A stretch of DNA of 35,282 nucleotides from Syntrophaceae bacterium (lineage in GTDB: Bacteria > Desulfobacterota > Syntrophia > Syntrophales > Smithellaceae): NCBI GenBank assembly GCA_016928765.1, contig JAFGKC010000027.1, forward strand, positions 1 through 35,282, given 5' to 3'. Of the stretch, positions 4,590-27,061 are shown in pieces. The translations under genes were made by a program, and so were the position numbers. The notes beneath the pieces were generated by a model. The model was not told where the DNA came from. It ran no database searches and saw only the letters and a list, made by a program, of their open reading frames with translations. The number at the start of each line of letters is the position of its first letter. Position 1 is the stretch's first letter.

Positions 4590-5423
4590 TTAATATTCCA
4601 GGTAGCTGTGGAGGCCAGCGAGTATATAATTAACTCCCAGATAAGTAAAAACAACACAGGCAAAACCTACTATTGAAATCAATGACATCCTAATACCCCT
4701 CCATCCTCTCGCAAGGCGGGCATGAAGAAAGGCACCATATATAAACCACGTTATCAATGACCAGGTTTCCTTAGGATCCCAACCCCAGTATCTTCCCCAC
4801 GCGCGGTCAGCCCAGGCAGCACCCGTTATTATTCCCAGCGTCAGTAATACAAATCCAATTGATATTATCTTATAAGTTATTTCATCCAAAAAGGCTGTGT
4901 CTGGCAACAGGTTGACGATATTGTTATTAATTATTTTTTTCAAAAGATAAAGAATGCTCAAGCCGAACGCGATGGCGAAACATCCATATGCAAGAAAAGA
5001 ACTAATCACATGGCTTATAAGCCAGTTGCTTTGAAGAGCAGGAATCAACGGTTGGATCTGACAATCCAGAGTGTTTGATAAAGATACATACGCAAGTATT
5101 AAAAACGCAAAGAATACAGAAAACATACTTATAAGACTATTCTTATATTGTTTTCTTATGAGCAAGAAAATAAAAACGATTGACCAAGAAAAAAAGACGA
5201 GAGATTCATAAAAATTTGACAACGGGGCATGTCCTATTCCCAACTGATACGAATGTATCCATCGGATAATCAACGCCAGCGAATGGAGCATAAGACCACC
5301 GACGGCAACCACTGTTGCTATCTTTTCCGCATTATCTTTCCGGAAAACAACGGAAACAAGAAAGATAAAGGCCGAGAGAAAATAAAGAAACGTGACTATG
5401 CTGACAATAAAAGTGTCATTCAT
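4590..5423 (-). CDS. ccsB: Cytochrome c biogenesis protein CcsA/CcsB (ResC-like)
   Basis: 277 aa multi-TM protein with WADRAWGRYWGWDPKETWSLITW, the WWD-type haem-handling motif. Confidence 0.92.
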   Translation of the reverse strand: MNDTFIVSIVTFLYFLSAFIFLVSVVFRKDNAEKIATVVAVGGLMLHSLALIIRWIHSYQLGIGHAPLSNFYESLVFFSWSIVFIFLLIRKQYKNSLISMFSVFFAFLILAYVSLSNTLDCQIQPLIPALQSNWLISHVISSFLAYGCFAIAFGLSILYLLKKIINNNIVNLLPDTAFLDEITYKIISIGFVLLTLGIITGAAWADRAWGRYWGWDPKETWSLITWFIYGAFLHARLARGWRGIRMSLISIVGFACVVFTYLGVNYILAGLHSYLEY

Positions 5424-6745
5424 GCTGTTTCGCCTTCCAGATATTCTGTAATCATTCTGTTTATTTTCTCCTTAAAAATATCTTTATTCTTACTAGTACT
5501 CGCCGCGATAGAAATTTCACATCCTTCCTTTTCTGTTGATACGCGAACCCATACTCTTATATGTTCAAAAAAAATACTTGATATAAATCCTACAATAATC
5601 AGGATAAAACCGATCCAGACGAGAATAACACCCGGATCTTTGTTAACCTGTATGCCGGAATAATAAACGATATCAAAATCATTTAACATAAAAACGTAAT
5701 CGCCTCTTTGTATTGGCGAGTTTTTATTCAACCAAAATATATCGTGTTCCTCACCCGGCTTTATTAAAACACCAAGCGCTGCTGGGCCTTGCCCCATATA
5801 ATCGGATTCAAACCTAGCCACGGCAAACGACAAATCATTACCGGAAACGGGGACTTTGTTCATCATATCCAGCGTTAAAAGGTTCTCTTCTTTTGTGGTC
5901 ATATTTATTACTTTAACCCGGAAATTATAGGCGCCGGCAACGCCAAAGGAAGCCTGTGAAAATTTAAAACCTTTATAAGTCAGAGGATGATTTACCCTGA
6001 TCACGCTTTTAAACACTTCTTTATCCTCATTTATTATGGTCAGGACCGTTTTATATTCTTTGGGTATCCCGTTTTTATAATATTTCAAGGAAAAATTATC
6101 GCAAGCAACATAAAAGTCGAGTTTCTTTGTGCCTTCATTCCCGAATAAATATACAGTATCGGATTTTCCGCCTTCGACCAGATTCATCTGACCACCAAAC
6201 CCCCATATGGCGCCGATTAACCCACCTGCAAAAATGAAGAGCACACTGACATGCACCAGAATCATTCCAAACCTGGAAAACTTGCCTTTTTCAATAAAAT
6301 AATAAAAAACGCCGTTGTTACTTACTCGGGTTAAAGAATTTGAAATAGATTTCAGAAACAAGCTCACTCTTTTTTCAATATCCGATTGGGGTTCTTTAAA
6401 GTACAAGGTATTCATGATCTGTGACGACGTAAACAAAGAATCGTCGATTTTCTTTCCTGATTTAATTGTTATTTTGGCGACACGCGGAATTTGCTTTAAG
6501 GTACACGCGATAAGGTTTACCGATAATAAAATTAAAAGAAAAGTGAACCACCAAGAATGATAAAGATCAAAAATGTTGAAAAATTTTAGGACATGAAAAA
6601 ATGTTTCGCCGAATATTTGCCTGTATTTATCTGGCGTTAAACCTTGCTCTATAATCGTACCAAAAATTGAGCTTGCGGCAATTACCAAAAAGAGGGTTAC
6701 AGTAAGTTTTACAGAAGAAAGTAAATCATATATTTTTGTTTTCAT
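5420..6745 (-). CDS. resB: Cytochrome c biogenesis protein ResB
   Basis: 441 aa; ResB-like N-terminal TMs (SVKLTVTLFLVIAASSIFGTIIEQ) and HPLTYKGFKFSQASFG; ATGA overlap with ccsB. Confidence 0.92.
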   Translation of the reverse strand: MKTKIYDLLSSVKLTVTLFLVIAASSIFGTIIEQGLTPDKYRQIFGETFFHVLKFFNIFDLYHSWWFTFLLILLSVNLIACTLKQIPRVAKITIKSGKKIDDSLFTSSQIMNTLYFKEPQSDIEKRVSLFLKSISNSLTRVSNNGVFYYFIEKGKFSRFGMILVHVSVLFIFAGGLIGAIWGFGGQMNLVEGGKSDTVYLFGNEGTKKLDFYVACDNFSLKYYKNGIPKEYKTVLTIINEDKEVFKSVIRVNHPLTYKGFKFSQASFGVAGAYNFRVKVINMTTKEENLLTLDMMNKVPVSGNDLSFAVARFESDYMGQGPAALGVLIKPGEEHDIFWLNKNSPIQRGDYVFMLNDFDIVYYSGIQVNKDPGVILVWIGFILIIVGFISSIFFEHIRVWVRVSTEKEGCEISIAASTSKNKDIFKEKINRMITEYLEGETA

Positions 6746-6930: not shown

Positions 6931-8550
6931 ATGATAATTAAAACTAGATCGATCACTCGTGGAAAGACATGCTTTATTATCGGTTGCCTGTCATTCGTTT
7001 TACTGACAAGTATTTGTTGGGCATCCTCGTCTTCTGGCAAATCCGACGTTCAGAAATTATCTACTGTATCAAAACCGACTGCGGACCACGCCAAATTCAT
7101 TATCCTCAATCAGCACATGAAACAAGGGCCCGACGCAACCAAGGCATGTCTTACTTGCCACACCGAGGCAGCAAAACAAGTTCAAAATAATATCCACTGG
7201 ACTTGGGGATTAGACAAGATGGGAAAGGAGGGAATGGGCAAAGCCCGTATTATAAACAACTTCTGAATTTCCCCGCGTACTAACTGGTGCAGGTGCACCA
7301 GCTGCCATGCCGGTTACGGTTGGAAAGATGAAAAATTTGATTTCACGGCTCAACAAAATGTTGACTGTTTAATATGTCATGAACATTCAGGCCAATACAA
7401 GAAATTCCCTACGGATTGCGGACATCCTGCTTATAAGCAGAAGGAATTTGGCGGTAAAGTCTTTAAGCCAGTCAATCTCAATCTAGCGGCAAAGTCCGTA
7501 GGTAAACCTACTTTAAAAAATTGCGGCGCGTGCCATTTCTATGGCGGCGGCGGCGATGGGGTTAAACATGGAGATTTGAATTCTTCAATCCTCTCAGCCA
7601 ATAGAGATCTGGACGTTCACATGTCTAAAGAAGGCGCAAACCTTACATGTACCGACTGTCATACAACGGTTAATCACGAAATGTCAGGCAGGTATTACAC
7701 AAAACGCGCTTTATTAAATCGTCAAGCGACAGCGCTCGGAAGCCATCTTTCGTGCGAATCTTGTCATGGAGCGACACCCCACAAAAACTCGGCTAAACTC
7801 AATGACCACACGGACAAAGTTTCCTGTCAGGCGTGCCACATCCCCGGTTTTGCGCGGAGCTCGGTAAGCACGTTGATGTCGTGGGATTGGTCAACAGCAG
7901 GAAAATTTACAGCTGACAAAAAACCAATAACCAAAAAAGACACTGACGGAAACCCCATTTATAACACGATGAAAGGGGATATGGTCTGGGGAAAAAATGT
8001 CACTCCCATTTATGCCTGGTACAATGGCGCAATGAAATATACAACTATGAAAGACACTCTTCCGGCTAGCCGTCCAGTTGAAATTAATCAACCTCTGGGC
8101 GATTATAATGACCCGGAAGCGAGAATTTTTCCCTTCAAGTATTTCCAGGGCCGCCAGGTTTACGACGCGGAGACTAACCGTTTCGTCATAAGTAAGCTGT
8201 TTGGCCCCAAAGGTAGCGGTGCTTACTGGTCAGATTATAATTGGCAGAAGTCAGTGGAAGTCGGCATGGCTGAATCGGGAGAAAAATTCAGCGGAAAAAT
8301 TGATTTTGTTGATACAGCAATGTATTGGCCTGTTACGCACATGGTCGCGCCGAAAGAGAACTCTTTGCAATGCGCGGCCTGTCACGCTCGTAACGGGCGT
8401 CTTGCCAGCGTTGCGGGTTTCTACCTTCCGGGACGTGATCGGGTTAAATGGCTGGATATTATTGGCTGGTCATTGTTTATTCTCTCAATCATTGGCGTAT
8501 TGGCACATGGTTTTGGACGTTTAATTTTCCGGTTGAAAAGGAGTAAGTAA
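6931..8550 (+). CDS. Octaheme c-type cytochrome, tetrathionate reductase (OTR)-like, with candidate selenocysteine 112 (TGA 7264-7266) and C-terminal TM anchor
   Basis: ORFs 6931..7266 and 7576..8550 are in the same frame and the interval is open except for TGA. Readthrough ...GKARIINNF[U]ISPRTNWCRCTSCHAGYGWKDEKF... Eight CXXCH motifs: CLTCH, CTSCH, CLICH, CGACH, CTDCH, CESCH, CQACH, CAACH; signal peptide; TM near the C-terminus. Confidence 0.9.
7284..7301 (+). promoter_or_regulatory. Candidate bacterial SECIS hairpin of the octaheme cytochrome
   Basis: 17 nt after TGA: CUGGUGC-AGGU-GCACCAG, perfect 7-bp stem with AGGU loop. Confidence 0.8.
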
Positions 8551-8551
8551 A

Positions 8552-9163
8552 ATGAAGCAAGTTATTATGTATCAAGGCACTGAAAGGTTATGGCATTGGT
8601 TACAGGCGGCTTTAATAATTTTTCTTCTGCTAACCGGTTTTGAACTACACGGAACTTACGAAATATTCGGCTATGAAGACGCGTATGAGCTTCACGCATT
8701 TGCCGCTTGGACGATGATAATAACAACCCTTTTCGCTATTGTCTGGCATATATACACTCATGAGTGGAGACAATACATACCAACACTTAAAGATCTCGAT
8801 AAAGTAATCCGCTGCTACCTAATAGGTATATTTTATGATGAACCGCACCCTTTTAAGAAAAAGCCAGAAGCAAAATTAAATCCATTGCAAAGGCTAAGTT
8901 ATCTGTATATTTTATTAATTGTGTTCCCAGTTCTTATAATCAGCGGATTGGTTTGTTTTTTTTACAACGAGCTCCAGGCTATGGGTTTGCCCATATCTTT
9001 TGAAGCATTCGCGATTATTCATACGATCTGCGCATTTTTGATGCTTATCTTTCTGGTGATACATATTTATATGACCACCACAGGCAAAACTCCCTGGGCA
9101 TACACTGTGTCGATGATCACCGGACGTGATGAGATTGAAGAAGAAGATACTAAGCTGGCATAA
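8552..9163 (+). CDS. Cytochrome b561/b6-type membrane protein (formate dehydrogenase gamma-like quinol oxidase subunit)
   Basis: 203 aa; RLWHWLQAALIIFLLLTGFELHG, HAFAAWTMIITTLFAIVWHIYTHEW, HTICAFLMLIFLVIHIYM; His-bearing TMs; 1-nt gap after the octaheme gene. Confidence 0.85.
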   Translation: MKQVIMYQGTERLWHWLQAALIIFLLLTGFELHGTYEIFGYEDAYELHAFAAWTMIITTLFAIVWHIYTHEWRQYIPTLKDLDKVIRCYLIGIFYDEPHPFKKKPEAKLNPLQRLSYLYILLIVFPVLIISGLVCFFYNELQAMGLPISFEAFAIIHTICAFLMLIFLVIHIYMTTTGKTPWAYTVSMITGRDEIEEEDTKLA

Positions 9164-26335: not shown

Positions 26336-27061
26336 TCAGTCGTCAAAGGCTGAACTGGTTTTCCAAACTTCCCAAACCTTGCCTACCAGATCGGGGCCTG
26401 GTTTGAGCGTCGGTTTGCCCGGCTTCCAGCCCGATGGCGTGGCCTCGGTTCCCTTGCTGTTGCGCACATGCTGAAAGGCCTGAAGTTGACGTAAAGTTTC
26501 AGCCACGTTACGTCCTACCGGCGGGGTAAGCACTTCAAAGCCCTGGATGATGCCATCGGGATCAATAAGAAATCTGCCGCGCGCTTCCACGCCCGCATCT
26601 TCCAGATATACGCCGAAGACGGAACCAACTTTTCCTCCGCCATCGGAAAGCATCGGGAAAGGAATGCCGCCTTTGACCATTTTAGAAAGTTCATGTTCGT
26701 CCCACATTTTGTGGACAAAAACACTATCCACGCTCATGGATAATACTTCCACTCCAAGTTTCTGGAACTCCGGATATTTTTCGGCGACCGCCGAAATTTC
26801 CGTTGCTCAGACAAAAGTGAAATCGCCAGGATAGAAGCAAAGGCTCACCCATTTGCCAAGATAATCGGAAAGTTTTATATTGATAAATTTACCTTTATGA
26901 TAAGCCGGGGCGGTAAAATCCGGCGCCTTTTTGCCAACGGTTACCATAGTTCTCACCTCCTTGATGGCTTCTTGTTTGGGGGTTTCTTTTTTATTGTCAA
27001 CTTTTTCTCCGACCGGACCGCCCGTAGGCCTGGCGCACCCGGCCTTGATTTCCTCAGCCAT
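26336..27061 (-). CDS. AhpC/Prx-family peroxiredoxin with candidate selenocysteine 85 (TGA 26807-26809)
   Basis: ORFs 26807..27061 and 26336..26752 are in the same frame and the gap is open. Readthrough [13 protein letters not shown][U][40 protein letters not shown] at the peroxidatic Cys of DFTFVCPTE. Confidence 0.94.
26779..26796 (-). promoter_or_regulatory. Candidate bacterial SECIS hairpin of the Prx-type peroxiredoxin
   Basis: 10 nt after TGA: UUUCGGC-GGUC-GCCGAAA, perfect 7-bp stem with GGUC loop. Confidence 0.88.

Follow-up and report, generated by a model that had tools for sequence, protein, structure and literature searches.

The window analysed here, a stretch of 35,282 nucleotides from a Syntrophaceae bacterium, carries a gene for an octaheme cytochrome c of the octaheme tetrathionate reductase (OTR) family in which an in-frame UGA occupies the place of a cysteine codon, and this gene is a well-supported further case of a kind of protein that is already known. 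Judging from the comparison of sequences, the replacement of this cysteine by selenocysteine (Sec) in OTR is real and widespread in the phylum. In the source organism Sec is almost certainly inserted at this codon, as the codon and hairpin evidence presented below suggests, and a reading of the product as a Sec enzyme, with its exact substrate left aside, is in our opinion very probable.

The octaheme gene and the site of its internal UGA

When the TGA is read as Sec, the gene (Table 1) encodes a protein of 539 amino acids with a single in-frame TGA, at residue 112, and the preliminary description of this DNA was right in calling the frame open except for that codon; under table 11 the gene is split, its first part being 6931-7266 and its second beginning at an internal start further on. 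The OTR-like layout with eight CXXCH motifs proposed in the same description also holds. The read-through product does carry eight such motifs, the haem count of the OTR family, and it matches the TIGR04315 model with 595.8 bits (curated cut-off, 375 bits; E 5.5e-179) over model positions 1-440 of 440, as well as the solved Shewanella OTR 1SP3 (E 9.4e-113), with homology along the chain. Its N-terminus contains a signal-like helix and its C-terminus a membrane helix. An AlphaFold model built from 32 sequences reached a mean pLDDT of 70, with low values around Sec112 and Lys212.

Table 1. Coordinates of the features discussed in the text, as positions in the window.
Feature	Position	Strand	Evidence or remark
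CcsA-like and ResB-like cytochrome c assembly proteins (4590-5423, 5420-6745)	4590..6745	-	divergent, upstream of octaheme gene
Predicted Sec octaheme cytochrome c gene, OTR family, membrane-anchored	6931..8550	+	TIGR04315, 1SP3, dN/dS
Haem-1 motif CLTCH	7147..7161	+	
Predicted Sec codon UGA (residue 112), at the column of Cys64 in S. oneidensis OTR	7264..7266	+	alignment
Predicted SECIS hairpin: stem 7284-7290 / 7295-7301 (7 bp), loop AGGU 7291-7294	7284..7301	+	conservation, bSECIS model
Extra Cys120 (NW-C-RCTSCH)	7288..7290	+	shared by all Sec proteins having the AACTGGTGC hairpin, absent from Cys proteins
Haem-2 motif CTSCH, whose first codons supply the 3' arm of the predicted SECIS	7294..7308	+	
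Haem-3 motif CLICH	7366..7380	+	
Haem-4 motif CGACH	7522..7536	+	
Lys212, equivalent to OTR Lys153	7564..7566	+	Lys in 120/120 aligned sequences
Haem-5 motif CTDCH	7648..7662	+	
Haem-6 motif CESCH	7753..7767	+	
Haem-7 motif CQACH	7825..7839	+	
Haem-8 motif CAACH	8371..8385	+	
C-terminal membrane helix, anchored subfamily (GFYLPGRD...GWSLFILSIIGVLAHGFGR)	8446..8547	+	helix 506-538 in AlphaFold model
Cytochrome b561-type membrane protein (PF01292)	8552..9163	+	adjacent in anchored loci
PrxU-type peroxiredoxin, second selenoprotein gene of the window	26336-27061	-	NF040737, 420 bits, cut-off 270

The UGA aligns with the Cys of the INNFC motif, which is residue 64 of 1SP3. In an alignment of 120 family members, drawn from 1SP3, whole-genome searches and contigs of named genomes, this column holds Cys in 96 sequences, Sec (in-frame TGA) in 23, a gap in one row, which is a fragment, and no other residue. 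The earlier expectation that homologues would carry a Cys here was hence borne out, with the column being Cys or Sec in every sequence covering the site; inspection of this very column had been set beforehand as a test, and it yielded no residue other than these two, while independent assemblies also show the TGA, with no sense codon or frameshift in its place. This equivalence of Cys and Sec at the Cys64 column, along with the conserved hairpin described below, upholds the proposal of a Sec-containing OTR. The haem-2 motif begins ten residues past Sec112. Cys64 and Lys153 are reportedly both located at the haem-2 active site of OTR, as described by Mowat et al. in 2004, and Lys153, which we take to be a haem-2 ligand, aligns with Lys212 of the window protein; a paper on OTR Cys64 or Lys153 was looked for in the open literature and not found. 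The catalytic haem of OTR has been named as haem II (PMC4484225), and a location of Sec112 near this haem would follow from its position in the sequence and its conservation.

A hairpin overlapping the haem-2 codons

A perfect hairpin starting 17 nt after the UGA had been reported in the preliminary description, and it is indeed present (CTGGTGC-AGGT-GCACCAG), with 24 nt separating the UGA from the loop. Its AGGU loop, 7-bp stem and 24-nt spacing agree with the bacterial SECIS model given in a review of May 2026 (PMC13188914). The folding energy is -17.9 kcal/mol and local folding is not unusual (z = -0.42), and by its energy alone a single hairpin proves little. Its conservation across relatives, however, goes beyond chance. 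The hairpin is kept at equal distance in 36 of 36 relatives belonging to two clades, and the only changes seen among them are a G-C pair turned into G-U, a single compensated exchange of C-G for U-A, and a loop that reads AGUU instead of AGGU. In the window's clade, the 32 Sec members have 163 conserved, degenerate codon columns with a median synonymous entropy of 1.0 bit, and the only ones devoid of synonymous variation are codons 118, 120, 121 and 123, all of which are inside the hairpin; Arg121, for example, is AGG in all 32, compared to about 2 bits of synonymous entropy in other conserved Arg columns. All seven stem pairs are intact in each of the 22 representative sequences, where one pair is compensated once (C-G to U-A, which makes Ser124 a Lys in L171) and another varies between G-C and G-U. 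Because the hairpin hardly varies, covariation is thin, and the weight is carried by the codon evidence. The window's stem is shared by four paralogues (L169-L172), with an AGUU loop in three of them. A scan of the window against Rfam at the gathering threshold gave no match.

A second type of hairpin, GCAACGA-GGC-TCGTTGC (7 bp), was found in three Sec relatives (L131, L132 and L159). In a loose SECIS geometry, hairpins with stems of 7 bp or more are present in 7 of 55 Cys relatives as well. In two Cys-type OTRs from the window's own order (L022 and L023), near-SECIS 7-bp hairpins occupy the site of the second SECIS type, and the one in L022, GCAACGA-GCC-TCGTTGC, is a near copy of it; these hairpins could either be left over from a Sec state or have arisen by coincidence from the coding sequence.

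The extra cysteine at position 120 goes with the first hairpin. In the first alignment, all 21 Sec proteins with that hairpin have it, and the 96 Cys proteins and the two proteins with the other hairpin all lack it. In the stem, its TGC codon pairs with the TGC ACC codons of the haem-2 motif. The outer CTGG/CCAG pairing already exists in 12 of 55 Cys genes, which suggests a short path from the coding of NWPRCTSCH to a full SECIS. A role for Cys120 as selenylsulfide partner was considered, but the three Sec proteins with the second type of hairpin lack this residue, and the stem needs the TGC codon. For these same reasons we prefer an RNA cause, and Cys120 is probably a by-product imposed by the RNA stem, beside which a role in the protein may also exist.

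Distribution, decoding machinery and alternative readings of the UGA

In a phylum-level sample, OTR scored over the cut-off in 69 of 396 genomes, and 30 of these 69 have an OTR with an internal TGA, which lies at the Cys64 column in all internal-TGA loci that were fetched from the sample. A class-level search for relatives repeated the order-level outcome. Among named relatives, the closest is a Syntrophaceae genome from Zodletone (L045, Thermodesulfobacteriota). Once relatives were added, there were 39 distinct Sec sequences, and these were placed in a tree with 56 Cys sequences. On this quick tree, from which the site's own columns were left out, at least four changes between Sec and Cys could be counted, irrespective of the direction of gain or loss. 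A single clade of all Sec OTRs was rejected (AU p 1.2e-72, on the same quick tree), and the window protein's clade consists of 32 rows, all Sec (SH-aLRT 99). A broader scenario, which we put forward tentatively and to which we attach somewhat less than even confidence, is that Sec and Cys were exchanged several times at this site, that SECIS hairpins were carved from haem-2 motif codons, the commonest form having forced the extra Cys120, and that the Sec enzyme would form with cytochrome b561 a membrane complex differing from the Cys enzymes in rate or substrate. In a large share of OTR-bearing Thermodesulfobacteriota, OTR genes are likely to be split or mis-called where the UGA is not decoded, and surveys of tetrathionate reduction may consequently undercount OTR.

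Three divergent OTR-like octaheme cytochromes (L039, L173 and L174; about 200 bits) have a common in-frame TGA in (S/T)Y-U-APPNTV.GHNWIGIL, apparently at the same active-site position; the insert that precedes their next haem motif is longer, and no SECIS could be clearly assigned to them. In a Cys-type OTR of Candidatus Parabeggiatoa (L086), an in-frame TGA is located in the C-terminal membrane helix, away from the Cys64 site.

The window's genome contains selA, selB, selC and selD. SelB (345 bits) and tRNA-Sec (58.8 bits) were both recovered, SelA is represented by its C-terminal half only, as selA is cut by the contig end, and SelD has itself an in-frame UGA at the active-site position (GAG-U-ACK; L155:1029-1958, contig C129). 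A further 24 Sec-OTR genomes were tested for SelB, and each of them had it over the cut-off. The peroxiredoxin gene of the window (Table 1) has its in-frame TGA at residue 85 (FTFV-U-A), with a downstream hairpin whose loop is GGUC. On the minus strand, at 1888-2514, there is also a gene for a protein of the C-GCAxxG-C-C family (TIGR01909) without an in-frame TGA; this family includes selenoproteins.

Other readings of the UGA were weighed against these data. Read with the standard bacterial code, the frame stops at 7266, and the UGA could in principle be the true stop of a decayed or truncated cytochrome gene. The dN/dS ratio in comparison to L045, however, is 0.055 before the UGA and 0.057 over the 388 codons after it, which means that purifying selection is equally strong on either side; in addition, among 39 distinct relatives the stop-type codon at this single column is always TGA and never TAA or TAG, and the hairpin is conserved, all of which leaves a true stop with next to no probability. 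An error in sequencing or assembly could have made a TGA out of a Cys codon, as the genome is a draft assembly in 222 contigs and TGA is one base away from TGT or TGC, and yet this explanation is refuted by independent assemblies and its probability is negligible: the same TGA occurs in genomes of other genera and families, and the TGA genomes carry a hairpin that most Cys homologues lack. Frame analysis taken alone would likewise be compatible with decoding of the UGA as an amino acid other than Sec, through a reassigned code or general readthrough, to which we assign a very small probability. TGA is, in fact, the normal stop in 4 of the 30 listed ORFs of the window, where readthrough would add only 7 to 17 codons; homologues have Cys at the site and never Trp or Gly; and the Sec machinery is present in the genome.

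Predicted function and relation to known systems

A cytochrome b561 gene adjoins the octaheme gene at every anchored locus examined, be it of the Sec type (35 of 35) or the Cys type (42 of 42), and at no locus of a soluble form. This cytochrome is likely the quinone-linked electron partner, and a quinone-linked periplasmic reductase is the function that fits best. According to the mechanism that we propose, the octaheme cytochrome would be exported and anchored in the membrane, and decoding of the internal UGA as selenocysteine would depend on the hairpin 17 nt downstream, which would recruit SelB and Sec-tRNA. Sec112 would then stand in for the invariant Cys64 of the active-site region, ten residues ahead of the haem-2 motif, and its selenolate would be the nucleophile that opens the S-S bond of tetrathionate, or of a related polythionate or polysulfide. 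Such opening would form a Sec-thiosulfonate intermediate, to be reduced by electrons travelling from the quinone pool to the adjacent cytochrome b561 and along the haem chain. The intermediate is suggested by the precedent of TsdA, in which tetrathionate is attacked by a Cys next to the haem to give a thiosulfonate (PMC5146829). Catalytic use of the selenol seems probable, and for a tetrathionate-type substrate handled in the reductive direction we consider the case evenly balanced.

Alternatively, Sec might well be inserted and the enzyme turn over a different substrate or work oxidatively (oxidation of thiosulfate or other sulfur compounds, reduction of nitrite or hydroxylamine), or Sec might tune or protect the haem, and we regard this as a serious possibility, if a little short of even. 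Anchored Cys forms are found in lineages named Thiobacillus, Sulfuricella and Thiodiazotropha, which are sulfur oxidizers. Purified OTR, moreover, also reduces nitrite and hydroxylamine in vitro (PMC4484225). The absolute conservation of Cys or Sec at the site nevertheless argues for a chemical role, and tolerance of these two residues only points to selenol or thiol chemistry beside the catalytic haem.

The preliminary description had considered Sec in a multihaem c-type cytochrome unusual; it is no longer without precedent, as the TIGR04315 octaheme cytochrome and the multihaem cytochrome ExtKL were both already listed as Sec-containing families (PMC13188914). In that review, the TIGR04315 entry is one table row, GenBank-annotated and without a motif, which records one Sec and gives WP_331457571.1 as the example. 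We found no other paper on TIGR04315 in the open literature. Nor did we find there any account of where the Sec lies and how it is distributed, of SECIS hairpins of two unrelated kinds built from haem-2 codons, of a minimum of four switches between Sec and Cys, or of cytochrome b561 being strictly paired with the anchored form. With these data, a one-line database annotation becomes a testable case.

WP_331457571.1 and the window protein belong to the same family model and have one Sec each, a likeness drawn from the table row and not from a comparison of Sec positions. The OTR of Shewanella oneidensis (1SP3) shares with the window protein the eight haem motifs and the positions of Lys153 and Cys64; it has, however, Cys in place of Sec and groups in the tree with soluble forms, whereas the window protein belongs to the anchored subfamily that is paired with cytochrome b561. 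ExtKL (NF040886) is similarly a multihaem c-type cytochrome listed as containing Sec, but it represents another family, and the window protein had no NF040886 match in the profile scan. TsdA, a thiosulfate dehydrogenase / tetrathionate reductase, resembles the window protein in the proposed chemistry of a haem-adjacent Cys, as a mechanistic analogy only, and differs in being a two-haem cytochrome, compared to the eight motifs seen here, with no TsdA model among the matches.
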